A stretch of DNA of 64,000 nucleotides, taken from Phycisphaerales bacterium. Its GTDB lineage: Bacteria > Planctomycetota > Phycisphaerae > UBA1845 > UTPLA1. Every line of letters starts with the position of its first letter. Positions within the stretch are counted from its first letter, which is position 1. The position numbers and the translations under genes were made by a program. Positions 18,798 through 32,297 of this stretch are shown one piece after another. The stretch covers positions 62,001 to 126,000 of the forward strand of contig JAKSDK010000801.1 in NCBI GenBank assembly GCA_022360095.1, in the 5' to 3' direction. Under the pieces are notes generated by a model. That model did no database searches, was not told where the DNA came from, and saw nothing but the letters and a program-made list of their open reading frames with translations.

Positions 18798-19976
18798 TTA
18801 TTTTTTCCTTGACGCGCCTGGAAGGTCTACGACCTTGATGATCCGCAGTCGGTTGTTGACGAACCGATCTGCAGGAACACCAGACTTGAATAGGTCGTAT
18901 CGGCTCGCACCCAAAATCTCACGCTGTTTGGCATCCGACTGGCGCTTCAGCCATTGGTCATAGGTCTCGTCTCGTGGCGGCGGCGCACCCTTGGGTACCG
19001 GGACATATGCACAGCGACACAGATTGTGAATCGGAATCTCCGGCATTTCCGGATCATTCACGCGGTACAGACCGGGAGAGAGCCCCTTGGAATGTCGCCT
19101 TGATGCCGCAGCGCACCGTAGACACACCCGCGCATCCAGCATCGTCGTGTATTTGATCACGTCGACGAGCGGCCCCGCGTATTCCATGAGGATCTCAAAA
19201 CTGTCGAAACTGATCACCTGCGCCTGGGTTCGGGCGATTGTCTCGATGTCGCGCTCGGCCTGCCGCAGTATGTGTCCGGCTTCGTCGACGATGTCGTCGG
19301 TTTCTCCTTCGAATCGGGCGATCTTCGCCAAGGCGTCTGAGACCCGATCAGTCGTGCGGTTGAGGGCACGGCCAGCGGCGCCGATGTAAGTCCGTGCCTC
19401 GTCCGTCTGCAGATAGGCCTCCATCTCATCGTCTCCGAGAATCCTGAAGAGCTCATCGAGGATTCCGGGAAGTTGGTCGGCAATCGACAGGCCGGTTGTC
19501 GTGCGGGGAACAAGTGGTTCATCCTCCGTCAGGGGTGGTAGTCCGGCAGTCTGTCTCAATCGTTTTAGGCGACGACGATCTGCCGTCTGTTGAATATGGT
19601 CTCTCAGTGCGACGACTCGGGATCCAGGGATGCTCCGCAGGAGCGCCCGTGCCTGCACAAGAATCCACCTGCGCGGCAGTTCGTCGAAGTCCCCCTTGAG
19701 GGAGCGCATAGAGGCCTCGACAGCGCTTCTGATTCGTCGTTCCAAGAGGAAGTTCAGTTGGTTGGCATTCCAGTCCTTCGGTTCGCCATCCAGATTCGCG
19801 AGGAATCTCATGATCGCGCGTCGTGCCTGGCGTATCGGCGGCGTCGCATCGCTGACGATCGCGTTTTCGACGCCCACGAGCGAATGCATGATCGAGATCC
19901 AGCGATCGTTCAGGCGGTCGCTGCGAGGCTGCTTGCGCGGCGGTCGCACTGGTTTTGCTTCAGTCAGGACAATCAT
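18798..19976 (-). CDS. Phage minor head protein (Mu F / SPP1 gp7 type)
   Basis: A 392-residue protein. Its C-terminal part carries the signature of this family: TMLDARVCLRCAAASRRHSK, then PIHNLCRCAYVPVP, i.e. a CxxC pair followed by H-x2-CRC. The preceding stretch (IVDEAGHILRQAERDIETIA RTQ) is helical. In Mu and SPP1 these proteins sit beside the portal and help head assembly or DNA delivery. In the usual order this gene directly follows portal; here the inserted NACHT gene (20125-23535, opposite strand) separates them. Start is ATG 19976, and the promoter of the NACHT gene lies right behind it. Confidence 0.85.
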   Translation of the reverse strand: MIVLTEAKPVRPPRKQPRSDRLNDRWISIMHSLVGVENAIVSDATPPIRQARRAIMRFLANLDGEPKDWNANQLNFLLERRIRSAVEASMRSLKGDFDELPRRWILVQARALLRSIPGSRVVALRDHIQQTADRRRLKRLRQTAGLPPLTEDEPLVPRTTTGLSIADQLPGILDELFRILGDDEMEAYLQTDEARTYIGAAGRALNRTTDRVSDALAKIARFEGETDDIVDEAGHILRQAERDIETIARTQAQVISFDSFEILMEYAGPLVDVIKYTTMLDARVCLRCAAASRRHSKGLSPGLYRVNDPEMPEIPIHNLCRCAYVPVPKGAPPPRDETYDQWLKRQSDAKQREILGASRYDLFKSGVPADRFVNNRLRIIKVVDLPGASRKK

Positions 19977-19988
19977 GACCTAGATGTT

Positions 19989-20031
19989 AGTTCCAACGGA
20001 ACTTACAAGAAACAGCAGGGCTCTGTATAAT
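19989..20031 (+). promoter_or_regulatory. Sigma70-type promoter with upstream palindrome, for the NACHT gene
   Basis: TTACAA (20003-20008), a 17-base spacer and a perfect TATAAT (20026-20031) lie about 94 bases before the NACHT start. AGTTCC (19989-19994) and GGAACT (19998-20003) form a 6-bp inverted repeat with a 3-base centre overlapping the edge of the -35, a possible operator. This would let the gene be expressed independently of the opposing phage late operon. Confidence 0.7.
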
Positions 20032-20124
20032 GTTGGCCGCCGAGGAGTAATCCGGGTCCAATTTCACGAAAATCTGATGACACAGAGCAAAAGAAGCCGG
20101 CACTAACGACATGGAGAATGCGTG

Positions 20125-23100
20125 ATGGCCAAACGACTAAGAAAACGCATCTTGGAAACAAAAAGTCTATACGACATCCTGCCACCAAGGACCTCGTCTA
20201 GTGGTCGTGAATTCGCTCGTATCGTAAACCTACTCTTGTTTCATGATGGACGCCGAAATGGAAAAACGGTCAGAATCTTCGATGACCGAGCCGGTGACTA
20301 CCATGGCCTTGACGCCTTTGAGAAGCAGCATAAGACGATCACTGTTGGCTATCAACACAAGTTCTATCCGTCTCCACTTAATAATAAAAATCGTGCGGAT
20401 ATCGAGACATCACTATCCAAGACCGTCGAAGGTCTAAAGAGGACCAAACAAACCATTAAAAAATGGATACTGGTAACGCCCCAGGATCCAGTTGAACCAT
20501 CGACGCGCAAGACCGGTGGAGATGTCACGTGGTTCGATAGTCTGCACAGCAAGCACAAACTGACCTTTGAAATTGAACACTGGGGACACACTCAACTCCA
20601 GGCCCTGATACTCGAAACGCCCTCGATCGGACTTAACTATTACCCGGAGCTTTTTTCCAGTGGCGTCACTCGCAAAAAGACAATCCAACAGCTTCGCCTT
20701 CAATACGACATCGCACTTAAGAAGGACCACGGAGAAATAGAGCTTGTCGGAATGTCTGTTTATAAGAAAGAGGCGGCCCGGACTATCCCGATCGAAAACA
20801 TCTACATTCCGCTCTCTGTCATCCCAAACAGCGCGGACGAGAACGACCCCAACATTCCCCGCCGAGATCCACTGGAGCTGCTTGTCCCGGGCACACACCA
20901 TGTCGTCCTGGGTGATCCTGGATCGGGCAAGACGACACTCCTTAGATTTCTGGCCCTTTTCGGTCAATCGGAGCCATTACAGCGACGCTATCGCGTGAAG
21001 GCGAAGGGCAAGCGTTTTCAATTTGAACCTGACGATCGGCTGCCAATCTTGGTCACGTTACGTCGTTATGCAGACGCAATCAAATCCAAAGAGAATTTAT
21101 CGCTTATCGATTATGTAAAGGAAAACACAGAGGCGGATTTTTCCATTACTGGAATATCGACGGAGTTCCTCGAATACTACTTGGAATCGGGAAAGACGAT
21201 CTTGTTACTTGACGGTCTCGATGAACTACCCAATCCAACATTCAAGAAGAAAATCCGCAATCGTATTCGCAACCTCGTGGAGGCCTATCCCGGAAACACA
21301 ACGGTTGTCAGTTCCAGAATCTACGGCTACGAGAGTGACTTTCAATTTGGCGAGGATGAATTCGAACATCACCGCCTAGCGAAATTGCGCCCAGAAGAGA
21401 TCGAGCAGTTTGTCCGGGATTGGTATGACGTGCACCTTGAACGGCCCAAGGACCGCAAGGACTATGTGGAAAGCCTCGTCGGTATCTTGGGTAATGAGGA
21501 AAATGAAGCAATTCGCGAACTGTCGCGGAATCCCCTGCTGCTGACGATTATCGTTCTTGTCCACCGAATCGATGCCGTCTTGCCGGACGAACGCCATGTT
21601 CTCTACGAAAAGTGTACGGAGACATTGCTCAACACCTGGCACACGTCGAAATTCCAAGAAATAGATAGACTTCACAGGGCCCAGGTCGATCGGCTGAACA
21701 TGGAACGCATGCAGGCCATGGCCTACTGGATGCACCACCAGATGGAGAAAACCAAGGCCGAACAACAGGCCGTGGTGGCTTACGGCCCGCTTCAGAAACA
21801 ACTCGCCGAACACATCAAGACTGAAAAACCACCCAATCCTGACTACGCCCCCGAGGACATCGCAACGGCCTTTATCGAGTTCATCCAGGATCGGGCAGGT
21901 CTTCTGGTAGAACTCGGCGACAGACAATTCAGTTTTGTCCACCTCACGTTCCAGGAATACCTTACAGCAAAACATATTCGCAGGTTATCAGAACTTAATG
22001 GTGTCAAAGATTTGTGGGCCACGGAGATTAGGGATCTCTGCTCTATTTCAAGATGGCGCGAGGTGATTCGCCTGCTGGTTGCGGGCTATGGGTCGGACAG
22101 CCAGGAGTTCCTCGTAGAAGAAATGCTGGCATGCGACCACACCAGCACAACGAATGCTCAACTGCTCGGTGGCTTGCTTTTGGATGGCGTCCCCGCCGCA
22201 AACGTGAGGAAACAACGTGTGCTCGAACACCTTCTGATGTCTTCTTCATGCACTCAAGGTGAAAGCGAACTTAGAAACACGCTGTCTGTTCTTCGTGCGT
22301 GCCGCGACAAACCTGATCTCGACAGGCAAGTGATCAAGGCAGCAGTAAAGTCACTTGCCGCTAACCTAGATGATGAGGGGCGAACGAGGCTTCGTCTGGT
22401 AGCGCTTTCTTGCAATATGAAGCTCACCGAGGTATGGGAAACTTGCGGCAAGGGTTTCAAACGAGAATCGGCTTTACTTTCGATGTTTGCAGGGAGAAGG
22501 CTGCGTACGGGCGAGGCCGAGATCCTGAATAGTGACGTGCAGCTTATGTGGGCTTACGCTGATGTTAGATTATTTAAGGGTCCGGCGGGGCGCGTCTACA
22601 CAAGCTTGTCCGCAAGTCTGGATGAAAGCATACACCCACAGACTAAGTGCGAACGATTGTTCGCTCTGCTTCTCTCAGCATTATCAGCAAATTTGACGCT
22701 TGGTCCACTCAACTACTACATTTCATTCCAACTCATTTCTTCTAAAGACACTTGTCTAATGACCTTTGGAAAAAACATGACTCGGGCTCTGGATCGGGCT
22801 CGGGCTCGGGCTCTGGATCGGGCTCGGGCTTTGTCTCTGGATCGGGCTCTGGATCGGGCTCGGGCTCTGGATCGGGCTCGGGCTCTGGATCGGGCTCTGG
22901 CTCTGGCTCTGGCTCGGGCTCTGGATCGGGCTCTGGATCGGGCCAAGGAACAGGCAGTCTGGCAGCAATTGTACTCTGATCCGACGATATCTGAGCAGCT
23001 CGTTCAGTTTCCGTGCGAAGTTTTCCGGTTGGAACCCCAGATGCTTTGGCGTGAAACGCTAAAAATCATCTTTCTGCCCACACACATCGGTCGAATCCGC

Positions 23101-23535
23101 ATAACGGACCCGCAATGGTGGATACAAACGAGAGACGCCTTTAAAACGGGAAAGACAACAATAGCAGACGTGAGCGCCGCAGCGGCTCAACTGATCTTCG
23201 ACAGTACCTTGTACGCGTTGAGCTACTATGACCCCACCAAGAAATCGTTAGGATACAACGACGAACAGATCGCGGAACACAAGCGAAGTTCGCCTAAACA
23301 TCGCGCGGTTTTCGATGAACTCGCAACGCTGACACGCGACAATGAGGACGCACCCTTGCGAATCGCCCACTGCATCCGCGACATTGCCTATGGAGACCGT
23401 TCGCGCACCGATGACCTCAAAGCAATGGTCGAGTCAAATGAGCCCGCCTATCGCAAGATCTTCGAGCGTTGCTATTGGAGGCCAACGAAAGACAAACGAA
23501 GCCGCGGCGTAGGGAAGAAAGTAAAAGATCAATAA
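20125..23535 (+). CDS. PD-(D/E)XK-NACHT STAND NTPase (bNACHT/Avs-like defence protein)
   Basis: About 1136 residues from ATG 20125 (GGAG eight bases upstream). Residues ~20-110 form a restriction-endonuclease-like domain: GREF with E29, DYHGLD with D58/D63, and a YQHKF strand with Q77 and K79. A NACHT domain follows: Walker [10 protein letters not shown] at ~263, Walker [12 protein letters not shown] at ~360, then the sensor-like [11 protein letters not shown] and the winged-helix region [31 protein letters not shown] is also typical. The C-terminus is helical with an LDRA tandem repeat (~886-940). Such proteins sense invaders through the C-terminus and activate the nuclease, by family knowledge. 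The gene lies antisense inside the phage structural operon and looks more A/T rich than its flanks. Confidence 0.9.
22781..22943 (+). repeat. In-frame minisatellite encoding LDRA repeats
   Basis: Tandem, imperfect copies of hexamers CGGGCT, CTGGAT and CTCTGG units (e.g. CTCTGGATCGGGCT) span ~160 bases of the NACHT gene. They encode alternating Arg-Ala, Leu-Asp-Arg-Ala and Ala-Leu steps, eight LDRA in all, predicted to form an amphipathic helix. Unit length is a multiple of three, so copy-number change would keep the frame. Confidence 0.9.
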
Positions 23536-23566
23536 TCTCCTTCTATATTTCAATTGGTGCCCTAGA

Positions 23567-25330
23567 TTACTGCCGCCCTTTCAATAAATCCACATCCGGC
23601 GCCGCCTCCGGATTCTCTGTCTGCTCATCCGCAATATTCTTCTCTTCCTCTTCGTGCTTCAGGTCTGCCCTGGTCCGCGCCGTCTTCTTCGAGATGATCC
23701 CGGCATCGGAGAGGATATCCAGTGACCGCGCGAGATCCAGTGGGTCGCGGATGATGATATTCGGGCCCTTGACCTCGATCTTCAGTTCATCCACCTCTTC
23801 CTCGCTCAGATCGCTCTCAATCCGTATCGTATCGCGGACGATCCGAGCCAACTGGCGCCCAAATCCCTTTTGGCGACAGAGTAGTGTGATGACCCCGCGG
23901 GCCTCGGCAACCTGCTGGCTGGCGAAGCTCGTAGCCGACGCATCGCCGGTGACCATGTAATCGGGGAGTCCCAGTCCGACGGCGATCAGGCGCAGGATCG
24001 CATGCCCGTCGCTCTCTGCATCCTTGGCTTGAACGTTCGGCGACTTAAAGTCGATCTCCGTGTCCATCGGAGCATTGATCGTCATTCCCAGATCGATGAG
24101 CCTCTTAGGTATCTCAACTGTGGGCCGGCTGTCGTCACCCGTCGGAGCCTCGTCCATCGAGTCGGCTTCGGCTTCGACAGCTGCCTCGATGTCACCGGGA
24201 ACACTGCTCTTCCGGTACACGACCATGGCGATGGCCGAGCGAACCTGGTTTAGCACTTGGCGGGCAGTCTGCCATGTGTCGTAGGCACGGATCGTTTTAC
24301 TGACGGTCAACAGCATGGGGACGCCGCGCTTACTGTTGCGACTGCAGTTGGTCTTGATGTGGCGAATACGCGAGTCCGGCAGGTTGTTGGCCTCCACGCG
24401 CACCCAATGACTCTGGCTTCCATCCTGCGTCTCGAACCAGTAGGCGAAAACGTGCTCTGGATCGTCCTTTAGAGTTTCGACACCAAATGTGAAAGATCGT
24501 TCTGCAATTTTTTCGGCGGAAAGCCCATGCTCTCCGGCGATCCTGTCGATCACATGTTTCTCGGGCTGCTTCAGGTTCTCCGGTTCCAGAAATCGATGGA
24601 TCGCCTGGCCTGGGCCGCGATCGCGAGCGCCTCCGTCGTCGCCTGCGTTTCGGATGCTGTAAAGACACTCTCCGTCACGGAGCGTCCGCGATACGAATTC
24701 TTCAGCCCGATCCTGAAAGTCGCTGCCCTCGCGCCGAGCCCAGGCACTCCAAGAATCCCGGCCCTTCGTCTGAACAATCTTGTTGTCGTGTGTGACGTTG
24801 ACCTCAACCTCCTGGCCGACGGAGTAGCAGACGAATATGTCGATTAGCCCGCGGTAGAGGGGATTAAACAGGTACAACCAGCGCGCGTCGTTCCTCCAGG
24901 CGTCCAGGTTCTGTTCACTCGGCTTTTGTGGAGGAAAGATGCGGCCCGTGATCGTCTCCCAGTCCGGGTCGTTCAGATCGATAGCGCCGTGTCGCCCGCT
25001 TGCGAAGTAATTCTGTCCCCATGATTCGGTGAGGAATGACTTTACTTCCGACTTAAGATTGCCCCGGTTCTCTGGCGCCCCTTGCAGTTTGTTCTCAAGT
25101 AGGAGCTCTGTTGCATTGGAGATGAACTGCTCTGCGATCGCCGTGCTCTTGCGATTGAGCGTTTGTGTGAGACGAAGCAACTGCAGGTCATTGAGGCCCC
25201 AGATTTTTGAGACCAACTGTTGCTTCCTTTTCGTCGCGTGCGGCCTCCTATTAGATCTCTTGGTCCCCGTTCCCTTCTTCTTGCGATTGGTCTTTCGAGC
25301 CGTCGGTGTTTTTGTTTTTGTCGTCTTCAT
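23567..25330 (-). CDS. Phage portal protein
   Basis: About 587 residues. The ATG at 25330 overlaps the large terminase stop by four bases (ATGA), which fixes the start; a longer frame from 25375 exists. A basic Lys/Arg-rich N-terminus precedes the portal core: YLFNPLYRGLIDIFVCYSVG, EFVSRTLRDGECLYSIRNAG, HIKTNCSRNSKRGVPMLL, ILRLIAVGLGLPDYMVTGDA. The last matches the typical GLPxxxLTG-like portal motif. It forms the dodecameric DNA gate at the capsid vertex, by family knowledge. It is directly downstream of TerL. Its stop lies 31 bases from the convergent stop of the NACHT gene. Confidence 0.9.
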   Translation of the reverse strand: MKTTKTKTPTARKTNRKKKGTGTKRSNRRPHATKRKQQLVSKIWGLNDLQLLRLTQTLNRKSTAIAEQFISNATELLLENKLQGAPENRGNLKSEVKSFLTESWGQNYFASGRHGAIDLNDPDWETITGRIFPPQKPSEQNLDAWRNDARWLYLFNPLYRGLIDIFVCYSVGQEVEVNVTHDNKIVQTKGRDSWSAWARREGSDFQDRAEEFVSRTLRDGECLYSIRNAGDDGGARDRGPGQAIHRFLEPENLKQPEKHVIDRIAGEHGLSAEKIAERSFTFGVETLKDDPEHVFAYWFETQDGSQSHWVRVEANNLPDSRIRHIKTNCSRNSKRGVPMLLTVSKTIRAYDTWQTARQVLNQVRSAIAMVVYRKSSVPGDIEAAVEAEADSMDEAPTGDDSRPTVEIPKRLIDLGMTINAPMDTEIDFKSPNVQAKDAESDGHAILRLIAVGLGLPDYMVTGDASATSFASQQVAEARGVITLLCRQKGFGRQLARIVRDTIRIESDLSEEEVDELKIEVKGPNIIIRDPLDLARSLDILSDAGIISKKTARTRADLKHEEEEKNIADEQTENPEAAPDVDLLKGRQ

Positions 25331-26802
25331 ACGGCTTTGATCCTCGCCTTGCCGGCTGTTTGGCGCCATCTCCATACTCTCTGGCCTTTGCGAGCCATCA
25401 TCACGGAGTCGGCCTCGTCCGGGCTGGCCTTACCTTTTTTGATCATCTGTTCCTTCGACATCAGCTTCAGCTGGCCTGTCGGCAGATGATAGTCCTTCCT
25501 CTGGTAGGCCAACTGCATGAGCAGGTCCTTGTCGTCGATCAGTTTGATTTTCTGAGTACGAATATCATTTGCAAGCAAGAAATATCCTTCCGACCGGGCG
25601 TTGAAGTATTTTCGCTCGTCCATCGGCTTGGCGTTCCCATTAAACTTCAGAACCGGCACTCTCTTTGCCCGAAGCTTGTCATGCACGCCTACTCCCAGGC
25701 CATCGGAGTCTACGGCGACGATGTCGGTGCGGTCATCACGCCACTCTTGGTAGGCAACTGCTGCCAATTTCTCGGTGTCATCGATGCGGTATTTCTTTAT
25801 TTTCGTGACGACGTTGCCGCGGATCCAGCATAAGACCGACTTGGATCGTCCCCCGCGCGCGACGTCAATCCCCAGCGCGGAAGGCTTGCCCCCCTTGCAG
25901 GGTGGCCGGCCCTCTGGGTCTTCGCATGCACGCTTGCATTCATGCAGTGTGAGCAGGAATTCGTCCGAAATGTCGGCGAACTCGCCTTTGACGTGCACCA
26001 TGTAGATCGGATCGGTCTTGTCTCCCCCGCAGTCGGCCAGTGTGTCCTCAATCCACTGTCGCGTGACCAGGCCGGGAAACGGTGGATCCTTGCCTTGGAC
26101 AATCCAGGGCAGCTTTTCCGAATCGATATGGATGGTCGACCAGAGATGCGCGATGTTGGGATCGTGGAACGCCCGATGGAACCACCCGTTCGTGACGGTC
26201 GGATTACCGATCGCCAGGATTCGGTCCTTCTCACCGCCGGTCACCGCCCGAATGCCATCATAAATGTCGTCAGAGATGCCGCTCGCCTCGTCGACGATGA
26301 CCAGAAGCCCACCTCGAGGGTGGCGCCCCATGAAGTTTTCCTTGCGCGTGGTACTGACGCCGGCGGCGAACCAGTCCTTCTCGATTTCCCATCTGTGCCG
26401 AAGCGGTCTGGGACCCAGTCCGCCTCGAACCTCAATGCCGCTCGGGAGCCTGAACGCCCTTTCGGACGCGACGCTCCACAGGTTGTGGATCTCGGCCCAG
26501 ATGACGTCCTTGACCTGTTTCATCGTTGGCGCCGTCGTGATAACCCCGCCCTTGGGGTGGGTCTGCATCCACCAATGGGCGGCAAGCGAGGCCATAGCGC
26601 TCTTTCCGATCGTGTTACCTGTTCGGACCGCCGTTCGCTTCTTTGTCGCCAGGGATTCCAGGATCGGGTACTGGTGCGGCAGCACATGGCGATCAAACCA
26701 GAGTTTGGCAAAGATCGCGGGATCGCGATGGGTCAGTTCAATGAGCTCGCGGTCATCATTCGAGAGTTGAGCGAGAGAGGGATGTCTGAGTGATCTGGAC
26801 AC
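25327..26802 (-). CDS. terL: Phage terminase large subunit
   Basis: A 491-residue protein with both halves of the packaging motor. ATPase: Walker A-like RTGNTIGKS (~59) and Walker B LLVIVDEASG (~167), plus an IGNPTVTNGWFH coupling-type segment. Nuclease (RNase H-like): GIDVARGG, IVAVDSDGLGVGVHDKL and SPDEADSVMMA supply the acidic residues. Length is as expected. It is followed by portal with a four-base overlap and preceded by a GroES-like gene 3 bases away. It cuts and pumps DNA into the prohead. Confidence 0.95.
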   Translation of the reverse strand: MSRSLRHPSLAQLSNDDRELIELTHRDPAIFAKLWFDRHVLPHQYPILESLATKKRTAVRTGNTIGKSAMASLAAHWWMQTHPKGGVITTAPTMKQVKDVIWAEIHNLWSVASERAFRLPSGIEVRGGLGPRPLRHRWEIEKDWFAAGVSTTRKENFMGRHPRGGLLVIVDEASGISDDIYDGIRAVTGGEKDRILAIGNPTVTNGWFHRAFHDPNIAHLWSTIHIDSEKLPWIVQGKDPPFPGLVTRQWIEDTLADCGGDKTDPIYMVHVKGEFADISDEFLLTLHECKRACEDPEGRPPCKGGKPSALGIDVARGGRSKSVLCWIRGNVVTKIKKYRIDDTEKLAAVAYQEWRDDRTDIVAVDSDGLGVGVHDKLRAKRVPVLKFNGNAKPMDERKYFNARSEGYFLLANDIRTQKIKLIDDKDLLMQLAYQRKDYHLPTGQLKLMSKEQMIKKGKASPDEADSVMMARKGQRVWRWRQTAGKARIKAV

Positions 26803-28425: not shown

Positions 28426-29112
28426 CTATTCCGGCAATACCCGCGATTCTACGAACTTGGCGTCGCCGCCACTGGAATCCATCCTCTCCCGAAACGCCGC
28501 CACTTCCTGGCTGAGCATCGCCGCCGTGATCGCAGTCGCGGCCCCCAAGTTGTTGATCTTGTCCGGATCCTTGAAGGGGTTCTGGAGGCCCATCTCTGGG
28601 AACCAGTCGCAGAGACACCAGATCGCCCACTTGGCCTGGGCGCCGTGCTTCTCCACCTCTTTGATGGCCCAGTTAATACACAGCTCCTTGGCTTTAAGCC
28701 CAACAGACTTCCGGGCCCTCGCGCGCAATAGGCGATAATTCGCATTCTTTTCTATAGCGGATCTTAGGGATCTACGCGATTTTCCGAGCACCAGGGCTGC
28801 GTCTTCCTCACTGAAGTTCCGACTGATCAGATTGCAGAATTGTGTCACCGCCTCCTCGTCTACGACCTCCGGCTGCCGACCCCGCACCGACACCCGGCCA
28901 GCCTTATGCAGGGCTGCCTGTCGCTTGGCGTGAAACTTATTGTCTCGCTCAGCAAGCTCGTTGAATTCGCTGTGCTTGCGCCCAGCCAGCCGCGCAGCCT
29001 TTCTGGGCGGCGTGCCCAGCGAGAGCATGTGCAGATAGGCTTCGAGCTCGCGGGGCCTGAGGGAATCATTGGTGCCGCTCGTCTTTTTCTTCTTCACTGC
29101 CACGTGAGTCAC
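28426..29112 (-). CDS. Terminase small subunit-like DNA-binding protein
   Basis: A 228-residue, basic protein from a GTG at 29112. The N-terminal half has helix-turn-helix character (EAYLHMLSLGTPPRKAARLA; DAALVLGKSRRSLRSAIEKN). The C-terminal half is helical (NNLGAATAITAAMLSQEVAA). Its place upstream of TerL and general features fit a small terminase or similar DNA-binding packaging protein, though the PadR pair and GroES lie between. It is the last plausible phage gene at this side. Confidence 0.6.
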   Translation of the reverse strand: MTHVAVKKKKTSGTNDSLRPRELEAYLHMLSLGTPPRKAARLAGRKHSEFNELAERDNKFHAKRQAALHKAGRVSVRGRQPEVVDEEAVTQFCNLISRNFSEEDAALVLGKSRRSLRSAIEKNANYRLLRARARKSVGLKAKELCINWAIKEVEKHGAQAKWAIWCLCDWFPEMGLQNPFKDPDKINNLGAATAITAAMLSQEVAAFRERMDSSGGDAKFVESRVLPE

Positions 29113-29234
29113 ACTTCAAAGAATGATCCGTTGGGATTCTCAGATGAACATTATACGCTAGATTGCTTTTGTTAACGCCCATCGCGCAACTAGCATTCAG
29201 TTGGGTAGCAGGTCTTGAAGTGCTTCAGCCGAGG

Positions 29235-29290: not shown

Positions 29291-29371
29291 CCAGCACACT
29301 TTCCAATTGGGTATCGAGGAATTACAATATCTAACATGGGCGGAGACCAAGCGCAAGAAATCGGACCGGAG

Positions 29372-30604
29372 ATGACGAGAGATAAGGCACTGGAACTGCT
29401 GAACGGGTGGGAAGGGGGAGTCGAGGAGTGGAATGAATGGAGAAAAGAGTATCCCAAGGCGAGAATTCCGAGTCTTGAAAGAGGCAGCTTCAATAGCCCT
29501 TGCCACCTCGAGGGCGCCAACCTCAGCCACGCCAATCTCCGCGAAACCAACCTCGACGGCGCCAACCTCCGCTACGCCGATCTCCGCGAAGCCAACCTCA
29601 GCGAAGCCAACCTCAACGGCGCCGACCTCAGCGAAACCAACCTCCGCGGGGCCAACCTCCGCAGGGCCAACCTCAGCGGGGCCAACCTCAGCGGGGCCGA
29701 TCCCATATTCGCCACGCTGTCTGAAGAATTGGTCGGCCCCACCGAACTCAGGAAGGCAAAACTCATTGCTTTGGGCAGCTGGGGCCGTGCACTGGATATC
29801 TTTTGGACCCTCTATTCAGTTCCATATCTGTTGAATGAGACCATCACGCGAAACACACGCTTCGATCGACGCGCCCGCGACCCGTGGTCCGTCCTCCGTC
29901 GAAACTACACCGGCCCAAACATGATCTTCGTGCTGCTCTTTACGATCGCAGCATTCTTGCCAGTCATTGCGAAAGTGACGTTCTGGTCTGCTGTGAGTCG
30001 GTGGCAGGAGTCTGCGGCGCCCATGGCACTCGAAGCCATACAACGGACATCCGAGTTTCTCGCCAAAACACCTGATCCGGCTTGGTCACCGTGGGTCGAA
30101 AGGGCGCAAGAGCTGACAACAGGCGTCAATCGTGAACGAATCACACCGCGCCAGATTCGAGAGACAATCGAATTGCTTTCTTCAAGCACTGAGATAATCG
30201 AGGCATATCGAAAGCAGACGAATGCAAACGCTGAAAAGCTTGAAGAGCTGAAGCAAATTGAGAATCGGGTGACACAAGCTCAAGAAGCCGTCCGCATTCT
30301 AGGAGATTATGATTTGAAGGAACGTCGAGTGTTCTCGCTCGTCCTCGGAACAGACGACGGCTGGTATGTTGTGATCTTCTCTGCTGTCCTGCTTATCTAT
30401 AACGCGGCCCGCGCAATTCTGACGTATTTCGTCGGTCCACTACGGGATGATGAAGAGCGCGTGGGAGTCTCGCCGGCGTTGGGCGACTACCGGTGGTTAT
30501 GGAGGGTCCACCAGTTTACATCACCGGTACTGGCCATCTCTATTCTCGTCGGCATAGCACGGATTCTGAGCGGCCTTTGGTCGATAGTGCTGGTGCCAGG
30601 GTAA
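29372..30604 (+). CDS. Pentapeptide-repeat protein with membrane segments
   Basis: About 410 residues. It starts MTRDKALELLNGWEGGVEEW, a short N-terminal module shared with the TIR gene opposite (MNRDEAIMLLRSGPEGIQKW). This module, common before pentapeptide repeats, is why I prefer this ATG to 29336. About 13 pentapeptide units follow (A-N/D-L-x-x, to ~residue 120). After that come hydrophobic segments (NMIFVLLFTIAAFLPVIAKV; VVIFSAVLLIYNAARAILTY; SPVLAISILVGIARILSGLW) flanking a helical region. The protein may be a membrane effector gated by its repeat domain. It converges on the TIR gene with 40 bases between stops. Confidence 0.8.
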   Translation: MTRDKALELLNGWEGGVEEWNEWRKEYPKARIPSLERGSFNSPCHLEGANLSHANLRETNLDGANLRYADLREANLSEANLNGADLSETNLRGANLRRANLSGANLSGADPIFATLSEELVGPTELRKAKLIALGSWGRALDIFWTLYSVPYLLNETITRNTRFDRRARDPWSVLRRNYTGPNMIFVLLFTIAAFLPVIAKVTFWSAVSRWQESAAPMALEAIQRTSEFLAKTPDPAWSPWVERAQELTTGVNRERITPRQIRETIELLSSSTEIIEAYRKQTNANAEKLEELKQIENRVTQAQEAVRILGDYDLKERRVFSLVLGTDDGWYVVIFSAVLLIYNAARAILTYFVGPLRDDEERVGVSPALGDYRWLWRVHQFTSPVLAISILVGIARILSGLWSIVLVPG

Positions 30605-30644: not shown

Positions 30645-31811
30645 TCATTCAACTTGATTGTCCGCCAACCCATAATTGACTTTCAGCCCATCGACGAGTT
30701 TCTTGTACACCGACTCGAATTCTTCTGTCTGCCACGCCGAGAAGTCGAGGACGTTCTTTTCAAACACCGGTTCCCAATGAACGTCGTTAGTCTTGGACTT
30801 CCATTCATCGTCAAGAGCAACAGGACAAAGCACGTCGCGTCCTTCGTCCAGTTCTTTCTGTCTGGCCGCTTTCAGTTCATGCTTAACCCAGTCGCTATTC
30901 ACCGACGACTTTGAGAGCACGAGCAGTACTATGTCGTTGAGTCGGATGGCTCGATCAACTTGTTTCTGGATATCGCCCGCATTCAAGTCGTGTCGATCAA
31001 GCCAGGTTGGCGCGCCTTCGCCTTCTAGTCGTTCGTGAATCTTGTCAACAAACTTTGAATCCTCGTGTGAATAGGAGATGAACACACCACCGATGAAGAT
31101 CGGACCTCGATTACGGGCATTGATAACCTCGTATTGCAGGTTGGTGAACTCGTCTGCGGAGAGATCGGGATCATAAGCCTTGGCTGCGATGATCTGCCAA
31201 GACTGAAACCCGCAGCCACGCAAGAAAACGTCTGGTATTCTACCTTTTGATTTGGCCAAGGTTTCGACGCCGACCGAGCACGGACCATAAAACGTGACCA
31301 GACGAAGCCCACTTGCCTCGGACAAATCTAAGGCACTTAGAATGGTGCCATTCATTCTGGATCTTGTGAAGTTTGCGCCACTGAGTTGACTGTCAACGAA
31401 CGTTGTTCCAGAAAGAAAACTAAGACTGAAGTTGACTTTCGTGAGATTAGCATTGCCAAAGTAAGCTACGCCGAGATGGGAGTTACCGACATTGGCGCCA
31501 GTAAGGTTTGCCTGAAAGAAGTTGGCAGAGGCAAAGTGGGCATCGCGAAGGTTGGCAGTGTTAAGGTTGGCGCTTCGTAAATCGGCTTGGGCGAAACTAG
31601 CCCCTCTCAAATTGGCAGCACTAAGATCGGCGCCCCTGAGATTGGCACAGGGAAGATTGGCCTGCCTAAGGTCTACGGCGTGAAGATCAGCGCGGCTGAG
31701 ATCGGCACCGCGGAGGCTGGGAATGTTTTCTCCCTCATTGCGTCGGCGGTTCCATTTCTGGATACCCTCCGGCCCGCTGCGCAGTAGCATTATCGCCTCG
31801 TCACGGTTCAT
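30645..31811 (-). CDS. Pentapeptide-repeat protein with C-terminal TIR domain
   Basis: About 388 residues from ATG 31811 (a longer frame reaches 31859). Residues ~5-175 have the shared N-terminal module and pentapeptide repeats (ADLSRADLHAVDLRQANLPC and on). The C-terminal ~140 residues are a TIR domain: VFISYSHEDSKFVDKIHERL, the acidic loop WLDRHDLNAGDIQKQVDRAI, VLLVLSKSSVNSDWVKHELK, VLCPVALDDEWK. Bacterial TIR domains often cleave NAD+ or make signal nucleotides in defence systems, by family knowledge; the glutamate expected in the WVKHEL helix is present. It is probably defence cargo at the mobile-element boundary. Confidence 0.88.
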   Translation of the reverse strand: MNRDEAIMLLRSGPEGIQKWNRRRNEGENIPSLRGADLSRADLHAVDLRQANLPCANLRGADLSAANLRGASFAQADLRSANLNTANLRDAHFASANFFQANLTGANVGNSHLGVAYFGNANLTKVNFSLSFLSGTTFVDSQLSGANFTRSRMNGTILSALDLSEASGLRLVTFYGPCSVGVETLAKSKGRIPDVFLRGCGFQSWQIIAAKAYDPDLSADEFTNLQYEVINARNRGPIFIGGVFISYSHEDSKFVDKIHERLEGEGAPTWLDRHDLNAGDIQKQVDRAIRLNDIVLLVLSKSSVNSDWVKHELKAARQKELDEGRDVLCPVALDDEWKSKTNDVHWEPVFEKNVLDFSAWQTEEFESVYKKLVDGLKVNYGLADNQVE

Positions 31812-31952
31812 GAATGAAGGATTGTACATGAACTCGACGGGCAGACTTACCCAGACCATGCGCGGGACCTATACGGGACCGATTTTTAATTTAGCAGGGT
31901 GAATTTGGGGATAAAATCGCCGTTTTTGGGCCATTCACTAAGGGTGAAGTGC

Positions 31953-31990
31953 TTTTAAGTCCCCGGCGTCTGCCATTCCGCCACTCGCCC
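31953..31990 (-). pseudogene. 5' half of a tRNA-Leu(UAA), broken after the anticodon loop
   Basis: Read on the minus strand: acceptor GGGCGAG, TG, D-arm GCG...CGC, anticodon stem GGGGA and loop CTTAAAA with UAA anticodon (31959-31953). The expected TCCCC partner strand is absent; the sequence continues GCACTTCACCC, so variable and T arms are missing. This is what an integrase attachment scar in an anticodon loop looks like. TTCAC and GTGAA, five bases apart, follow directly, resembling a tyrosine-recombinase core site. Confidence 0.7.
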
Positions 31991-32297
31991 GACCTTGTCA
32001 TTAAAGGACTTACGGCACAAATCCATCGGCGCGTGACCTTTATGCAACCGATGGAATCCCCCGCCTGCGCCGGGGGCTCCAATTTCGTCATGTATACTAC
32101 TCCCATGGGGCGCAAGCGGAAAGCACGCCTTCACGGCGGAGACGGCAAGCGAATCGAAGGCGACTCCGAATCGGCCAGGGGGCCTCGTTGAACAAACGCT
32201 CATCCATCATAATGGCGCAAGTCGATCGAGGTCGGTCTGATTCACCGGATGAAATGAGGGACGAGCCTGAGCCGTTGAGAACTCATACGATGCCGCC
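31991..32297. other. Gene-free region between tRNA fragment and YedK-like gene
   Basis: About 300 bases, no credible ORF, no recognised regulatory site. Confidence 0.5.

Follow-up and report, generated by a model that had tools for sequence, protein, structure and literature searches.

A stretch of 64,000 nucleotides from a Phycisphaerales bacterium (contig JAKSDK010000801.1, positions 62,001 to 126,000; hereafter the window) contains the head operon of a prophage, and a gene for a nuclease-NACHT protein is inserted on the opposite strand where an ancestral 4-bp overlap joined two genes of that operon. The open reading frame (ORF), at 20125..23535 on the plus strand with an alternative GTG start at 20122, encodes 1136 aa and was identified from the ORF list and a Pfam NACHT match. 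We propose that a temperate phage carries the gene as cargo and that its product is probably a single-protein immune receptor of the bNACHT type, which would be expressed in the lysogen and act by abortive infection. An earlier interpretation of the DNA from its letters alone (the sequence-only reading) had described an opposite-strand gene for about 1136 residues exactly between the portal and minor-head genes, and this was confirmed.

The N-terminal domain of the protein (aa 1–185; 20125..20679, plus strand) was assigned by alignment, PADLOC and hhalign. Pfam gave no match to the N-terminus, and the 5027 PADLOC models matched it with Avs2, Avs4 and Avs2 only, weakly (0.002–0.014). A tblastn search at a relaxed E-value recovered plasmid proteins with the same G-x-D/E ... 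Q-x-K pattern; when four of these relatives were taken in full, three matched LmuA (E < 1e-100) and one a full Avs2. Comparison of the window domain with an LmuA alignment by hhalign gave a probability of 92.5% and a P value of 4.8e-7. Residues D58, G61, Q77 and K79 were invariant in a five-sequence alignment, and E29, D63, Q77 and K79 are the candidate active-site residues. By transitive homology through the LmuA and Avs2 plasmid proteins and by the profile comparison, the N-terminus is confirmed, at the level of sequence, as an Avs2/LmuA-type PD-(D/E)XK nuclease. The viral contigs yielded no nuclease-domain homologues for an alignment, and a match to the N-terminus in genome G415 was judged to be spurious.

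The NACHT NTPase (aa 258–434; 20896..21426, plus strand) was recognized by Pfam PF05729 (8.6e-9, above the cut-off), by conserved columns and by its fold. It contains the Walker A motif GDPGSGKT, including K269, and the Walker B motif LLLDGLDE at aa 360–367; when 50 relatives were aligned with it, both Walker motifs and one more motif (10 residues) proved to be retained. AlphaFold2 prediction on this alignment gave pLDDT values mostly above 90 for the NACHT module, followed by helical hairpins as far as about residue 780, those at aa 640–780 (22042..22464, plus strand; pLDDT about 65–93) forming a solenoid-like series after the module. When the predicted structure was searched against the PDB, all 20 of the 20 best matches were NLR entries, including NOD2, NLRC4 and NLRP3. 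Thus, the NACHT motifs noted in the sequence-only reading are confirmed by the Pfam and structure matches. A single-protein scan of viral contigs found no close whole-protein relatives, and the alignment search found six distant NACHT matches.

The C-terminal region (aa 941–1136; 22945..23532, plus strand) is an orphan, in which AlphaFold2 predicts helices with low to medium confidence. Neither aa 661–886 nor aa 941–1136 matched Pfam, the C-terminus had no plasmid match, and none of the known sensor domains NCH1, NCH2, SNaCT and LRR was detected in it by Pfam.

The head operon and the nuclease-NACHT gene belong to a prophage. In the 207-kb contig, 38 bp of tRNA-Leu(UAA) sequence are directly repeated and bound an element of about 64.8 kb, which supports the earlier placement of the gene in a prophage. 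The left attachment copy (contig 29146–29183, outside the window) lies in an intact tRNA-Leu(UAA) at contig 29098–29184, adjoined by an integrase-like gene (contig 29300–30448); the right attachment site, a copy of the same 38 bp, is at 31954..31991 of the window, and the window covers the right half of the prophage. Genes to the right of the element resemble ordinary chromosomal genes on inspection of their sequences only.

Within the head operon, the nuclease-NACHT gene is the sole ORF between the portal gene (23567..25330, minus strand; Pfam Phage_portal_2 5e-26, PHROG 21) and the minor head or head morphogenesis gene (18798..19976, minus strand; PHROG 241, 1.4e-19). The terminase large subunit gene (25327..26802, minus strand; PHROG 2) adjoins the portal gene, and both it and the minor-head gene have homologues in G110, a genome of the same family. 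The nuclease-NACHT ORF is flanked by gaps of 145 bp towards minor head (counted to the GTG at 20122) and 31 bp towards portal; of the two possible starts, the ATG at 20125 is better spaced from a GGAG at about 20112. Its GC content is 51.2% and its GC at third codon positions (GC3) 0.559, as compared with 55–60% and 0.66–0.77 for the phage structural genes, and it is thus A/T-richer than its flanks, as had been observed by eye.

The phage of G110 has the same gene order as the window for terminase, portal, minor head and nine or more further genes, with about 29–38% protein identity. There, the terminase/portal and portal/minor-head pairs each overlap by 4 bp, the latter in the sequence GTGA, an arrangement usual in translational coupling. 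The window retains the terminase/portal overlap (ATGA, 25327–25330, with the portal start at 25330; a longer ORF begins at 25375), but 3590 bp separate portal from minor head. In a more distant relative, G331, the portal gene is followed directly by a (fused) head protein gene. The nuclease-NACHT gene is absent from both relatives, and at eight other portal-family loci of the phylum with colinear downstream genes the same strand continues. Since the G110 and G331 junctions are empty and the colinear loci of the phylum show no change of strand, this lineage most likely acquired the gene, i.e. by insertion. The suggestion that it is added cargo of the phage is supported by these empty sites and by its different composition, the gene being known from one carrier in a draft assembly.

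No different cargo was found at the portal/minor-head junction, which is empty in G110 and G331, the distant colinear loci being same-strand. A defence hotspot at this junction was not demonstrated: the other loci of the phylum were either same-strand or solitary portal-like genes outside a recognizable head operon. Such solitary portal-family genes, with neighbours on the other strand, were seen at seven loci in several genomes of the phylum and are possibly domesticated portal-like genes. Searches of viral contigs and phages gave no portal relatives; the terminase-only matches (L056–L058) and one partial minor-head match (L190) from these scans were not informative.

A promoter-like site, CTTACA-18-TATAAT, is present at 20002..20031 (plus strand). 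It has 10 of 12 matches and is the best of 6 hits, where shuffled sequences yield 2.8 (S.D. 1.7). A 23-bp palindrome, TGTTAGTTCC-aac-GGAACTTACA (19985..20007), overlaps the −35 box and lies directly upstream of the minor-head start codon. Thus, both elements of the near-consensus promoter with a palindrome described earlier were found, but in view of the shuffles the site is suggestive only as the gene's own promoter. Because the palindrome core AGTTCCNNNGGAACT has no further exact copy in the genome, we deduce no regulon from this operator-like palindrome.

In the proposed mechanism, the PD-(D/E)XK DNase would be the effector, the NACHT NTPase an oligomerizing switch and the orphan helical C-terminus the sensor. 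In the lysogen, the gene would be transcribed from a promoter of its own; on sensing a product of an infecting phage, the NACHT module would assemble and the nuclease would degrade DNA, so that the infection would be aborted and the prophage and sister cells spared. What is known of the protein families makes oligomerization, DNA cleavage and abortive infection likely: the PD-(D/E)XK-NACHT proteins bNACHT25 and bNACHT32 require their nuclease for defence (PMC12169576), and the nucleases of Avs1–4 act once terminase, portal or some other phage protein has been recognized (PMC12931631). Defence genes of prophages require self-tolerance, as in BstA/aba (PMC8585504) and Tha/Ith (PMC11087260). On induction, opposing late transcription of the head operon might turn the nuclease-NACHT gene down, so that the phage's own lytic cycle would not be attacked. 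The layout is what suggests such antisense silencing, which we put forward tentatively and consider rather doubtful. In S. aureus phages, the tha prophage defence is shut off by an overlapping antisense gene, partly by antisense transcription (PMC11087260).

Several observations weigh against the proposal. No full-length homologue was found in which the candidate catalytic residues could be compared within the protein's own family. The direct Avs matches to the N-terminus are weak, and a single-sequence model of the nuclease domain had a mean pLDDT of 31.8. The earlier description of the N-terminus as PD-(D/E)XK-like is confirmed by the sequence, and structure prediction gave the NACHT fold but not the nuclease fold or its triad. 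As to silencing, the antisense ORFs within the gene (199 and 177 aa), considered as possible inhibitors, are not clearly beyond chance, since fractions of 0.15 and 0.04 of the codon shuffles, respectively, contained ORFs as long; the tha precedent depends mainly on an inhibitor protein.

The possibility exists that the same defence gene was inserted by chance and that neither its site nor its direction has any regulatory significance, in which case the prophage may be lytically defective, with portal and minor head uncoupled. We give this explanation considerable weight without preferring it. It would agree with the single known carrier, with the loss of the ancestral 4-bp overlap and with the long untranslated stretch in the late transcript, which must here traverse a 3.4-kb antisense gene, the minor-head gene needing its own ribosome-binding site. 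Against it, the structural ORFs are all intact across the operon, and the borders of the insertion coincide with gene ends, leaving the portal and minor-head ORFs both whole. By the same findings, the view of the sequence-only reading that the chosen site would leave a capsid operon unbroken is not supported in this form: the ORFs are intact, yet the ancestral junction is broken.

It is also conceivable, but unlikely, that the protein is a NACHT regulator of another kind, for instance one that senses host stress or plasmid DNA, or a toxin stabilizing the prophage, rather than an antiphage receptor. An orphan C-terminus would suit such a role, and NACHT relatives have many different C-termini, including SUMF1-like and HEAT. 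However, the effector domain belongs to the type present in the defence systems Avs2 and Lamassu, and the PD-(D/E)XK-NACHT proteins that have been tested are antiphage (PMC12169576). Joining of an unrelated gene into the contig by misassembly is very improbable: the genome is a draft of 1918 contigs with 3.5% contamination, but the contig is uninterrupted over its 207 kb, the borders fall exactly at gene ends and the gene is single-copy in the assembly. That the gene is a fixed part of the phage and serves in structure or assembly, as the position in the head operon might suggest, is hardly tenable given the opposite strand, the immune-type domains and the different composition, and is contradicted by the empty site in the relatives.

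Returning to the putative immune receptor, a hexanucleotide array of the unit C[GT]GG[CA]T (22783..22941, plus strand; aa 887–939), found by TRF and a codon census, encodes RA, LD and LA dipeptides ahead of the orphan region. CGG, GCT, CTG and GAT make up 51 of its 53 codons, nearly without synonymous variation; elsewhere in the gene, CGG accounts for 10% of Arg codons and GCT for 13% of Ala codons (log10 P −41.7). Because codon use in the array is nearly uniform, it points to expansion at the DNA level rather than to protein-level selection alone. Changes by whole units keep the frame, and therefore length, not an on/off state, would vary. A match of the repeat to L022/L050 was attributed to chance composition. 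It is imaginable, though decidedly unlikely, that the late head operon serves as the off-switch of a nested antisense NLR-like DNase in which a slippage-prone array alters the length of a sensor or oligomerization helix in frame, in two-residue steps, and so rapidly diversifies this relative of NLRs without a dedicated mutagenic enzyme.

Alternating dipeptide tracts were also seen in cyanobacterial NACHT proteins, in seven of them between NACHT and NCH2 (the C-terminal NCH2 was checked in four) and in another, L067, between NACHT and the C-terminal domain. These tracts, for example (AN/AY/AI)n or (LA/LD/RA)n, have a 6-bp DNA unit with synonymous variation, and they lie closer to the NACHT core than the window array does; we do not claim homology between them. 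At a threshold of 11, a tract was present in 6 of 86 NACHT proteins and 1 of 142 neighbouring ORFs (one-sided Fisher p 0.012), a modest effect for which each of several related sequences counted as a case of its own and the threshold was picked after looking.

Other genes of the prophage were noted as well. Adjoining the right attachment site, a minus-strand gene (30645–31859) encodes a protein of pentapeptide repeats that ends in a TIR domain (Pfam TIR_2 4.5e-24); its GC3 of 0.562 is low, as in the NACHT gene, and it is a probable second defence cargo gene. Divergent from it, a plus-strand gene (29336–30604) encodes a pentapeptide-repeat protein whose C-terminal part looks membrane-spanning by eye and whose repeat is encoded by a 15-bp tandem array (29515–29693). 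Just beyond the attachment site, a second stretch (32104–32157) resembles the start of the integrase gene (MGRKRKARLHGGDGKRIE...), with 74% DNA identity over 209 bp including the attachment core, and may be what is left of an older insertion at this tRNA. The left half of the prophage contains a plus-strand block (G000:C451 50250–59789, L046) among minus-strand phage genes; it includes protein-kinase-like and sigma-factor-like genes by eye and is possible further cargo.

How prophages that carry broad receptors for phage components avoid killing themselves on induction is partly understood. If the proposed silencing is true, antisense placement between portal and minor head would be a simple answer, with late transcription lowering the receptor. 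Through arrays such as the hexamer array, the sensors of bacterial relatives of NLRs might change quickly. The PD-(D/E)XK-NACHT architecture is already known, and the window protein is a new member with an orphan C-terminus; less usual are the nested antisense position of its gene within a head operon, where a relative has the junction translationally coupled, and the monotonous codon use of the array.

Among known systems, the defence hotspots of P2 and P4 likewise hold 1–5 kb of defence cargo between two conserved phage genes (PMC9122126), whereas no evidence of turnover was found at the window junction, the relatives examined being empty. In Tha/Ith of S. aureus phages, an antisense ‘noncontiguous operon’, a prophage defence gene is also overlapped by opposed phage transcription (PMC11087260). 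Like it, the window gene lies antisense to and inside a phage operon, a layout that would fit mutual exclusion of lytic operon and defence gene. Tha is a HEPN RNase encoded close to the cI operon and accompanied by a small inhibitor gene, whereas the window gene encodes a DNase-NACHT protein in the head operon, with no evident inhibitor. LmuA of Lamassu has the same nuclease family but works with LmuB in an operon; the window nuclease is fused to NACHT, and the single gene between portal and minor head has no SMC-like LmuB partner. Avs2 and Avs4 (AVAST) share the N-terminal nuclease family and a STAND-type switch, whereas the window NTPase matches canonical NACHT and NLR folds. PADLOC gave no Avs match to the full protein at E 0.01, where a genuine Avs2 scores 1810 bits, and since full-length Avs models do not match, Avs membership beyond the nuclease domain was ruled out.

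The search of defence collections gave Avs2/Avs4 for the nuclease domain, and the nuclease-NACHT architecture described in the sequence-only reading is supported. In bNACHT25 and bNACHT32 (clade 6), an N-terminal PD-(D/E)XK DNase, a central NACHT and a C-terminal helical sensor are likewise combined in one protein (PMC12169576). These two have an NCH1 C-terminus, whereas no NCH family was detected in the window protein, and the window gene differs further in its site in a prophage head operon and its in-gene hexamer array. By its sequence, the window protein has the central NACHT NTPase and the N-terminal effector domain of the bNACHT group. The lack of a known sensor domain excludes filing it in clade 6 but not in the broad bNACHT group, whose known C-termini vary.

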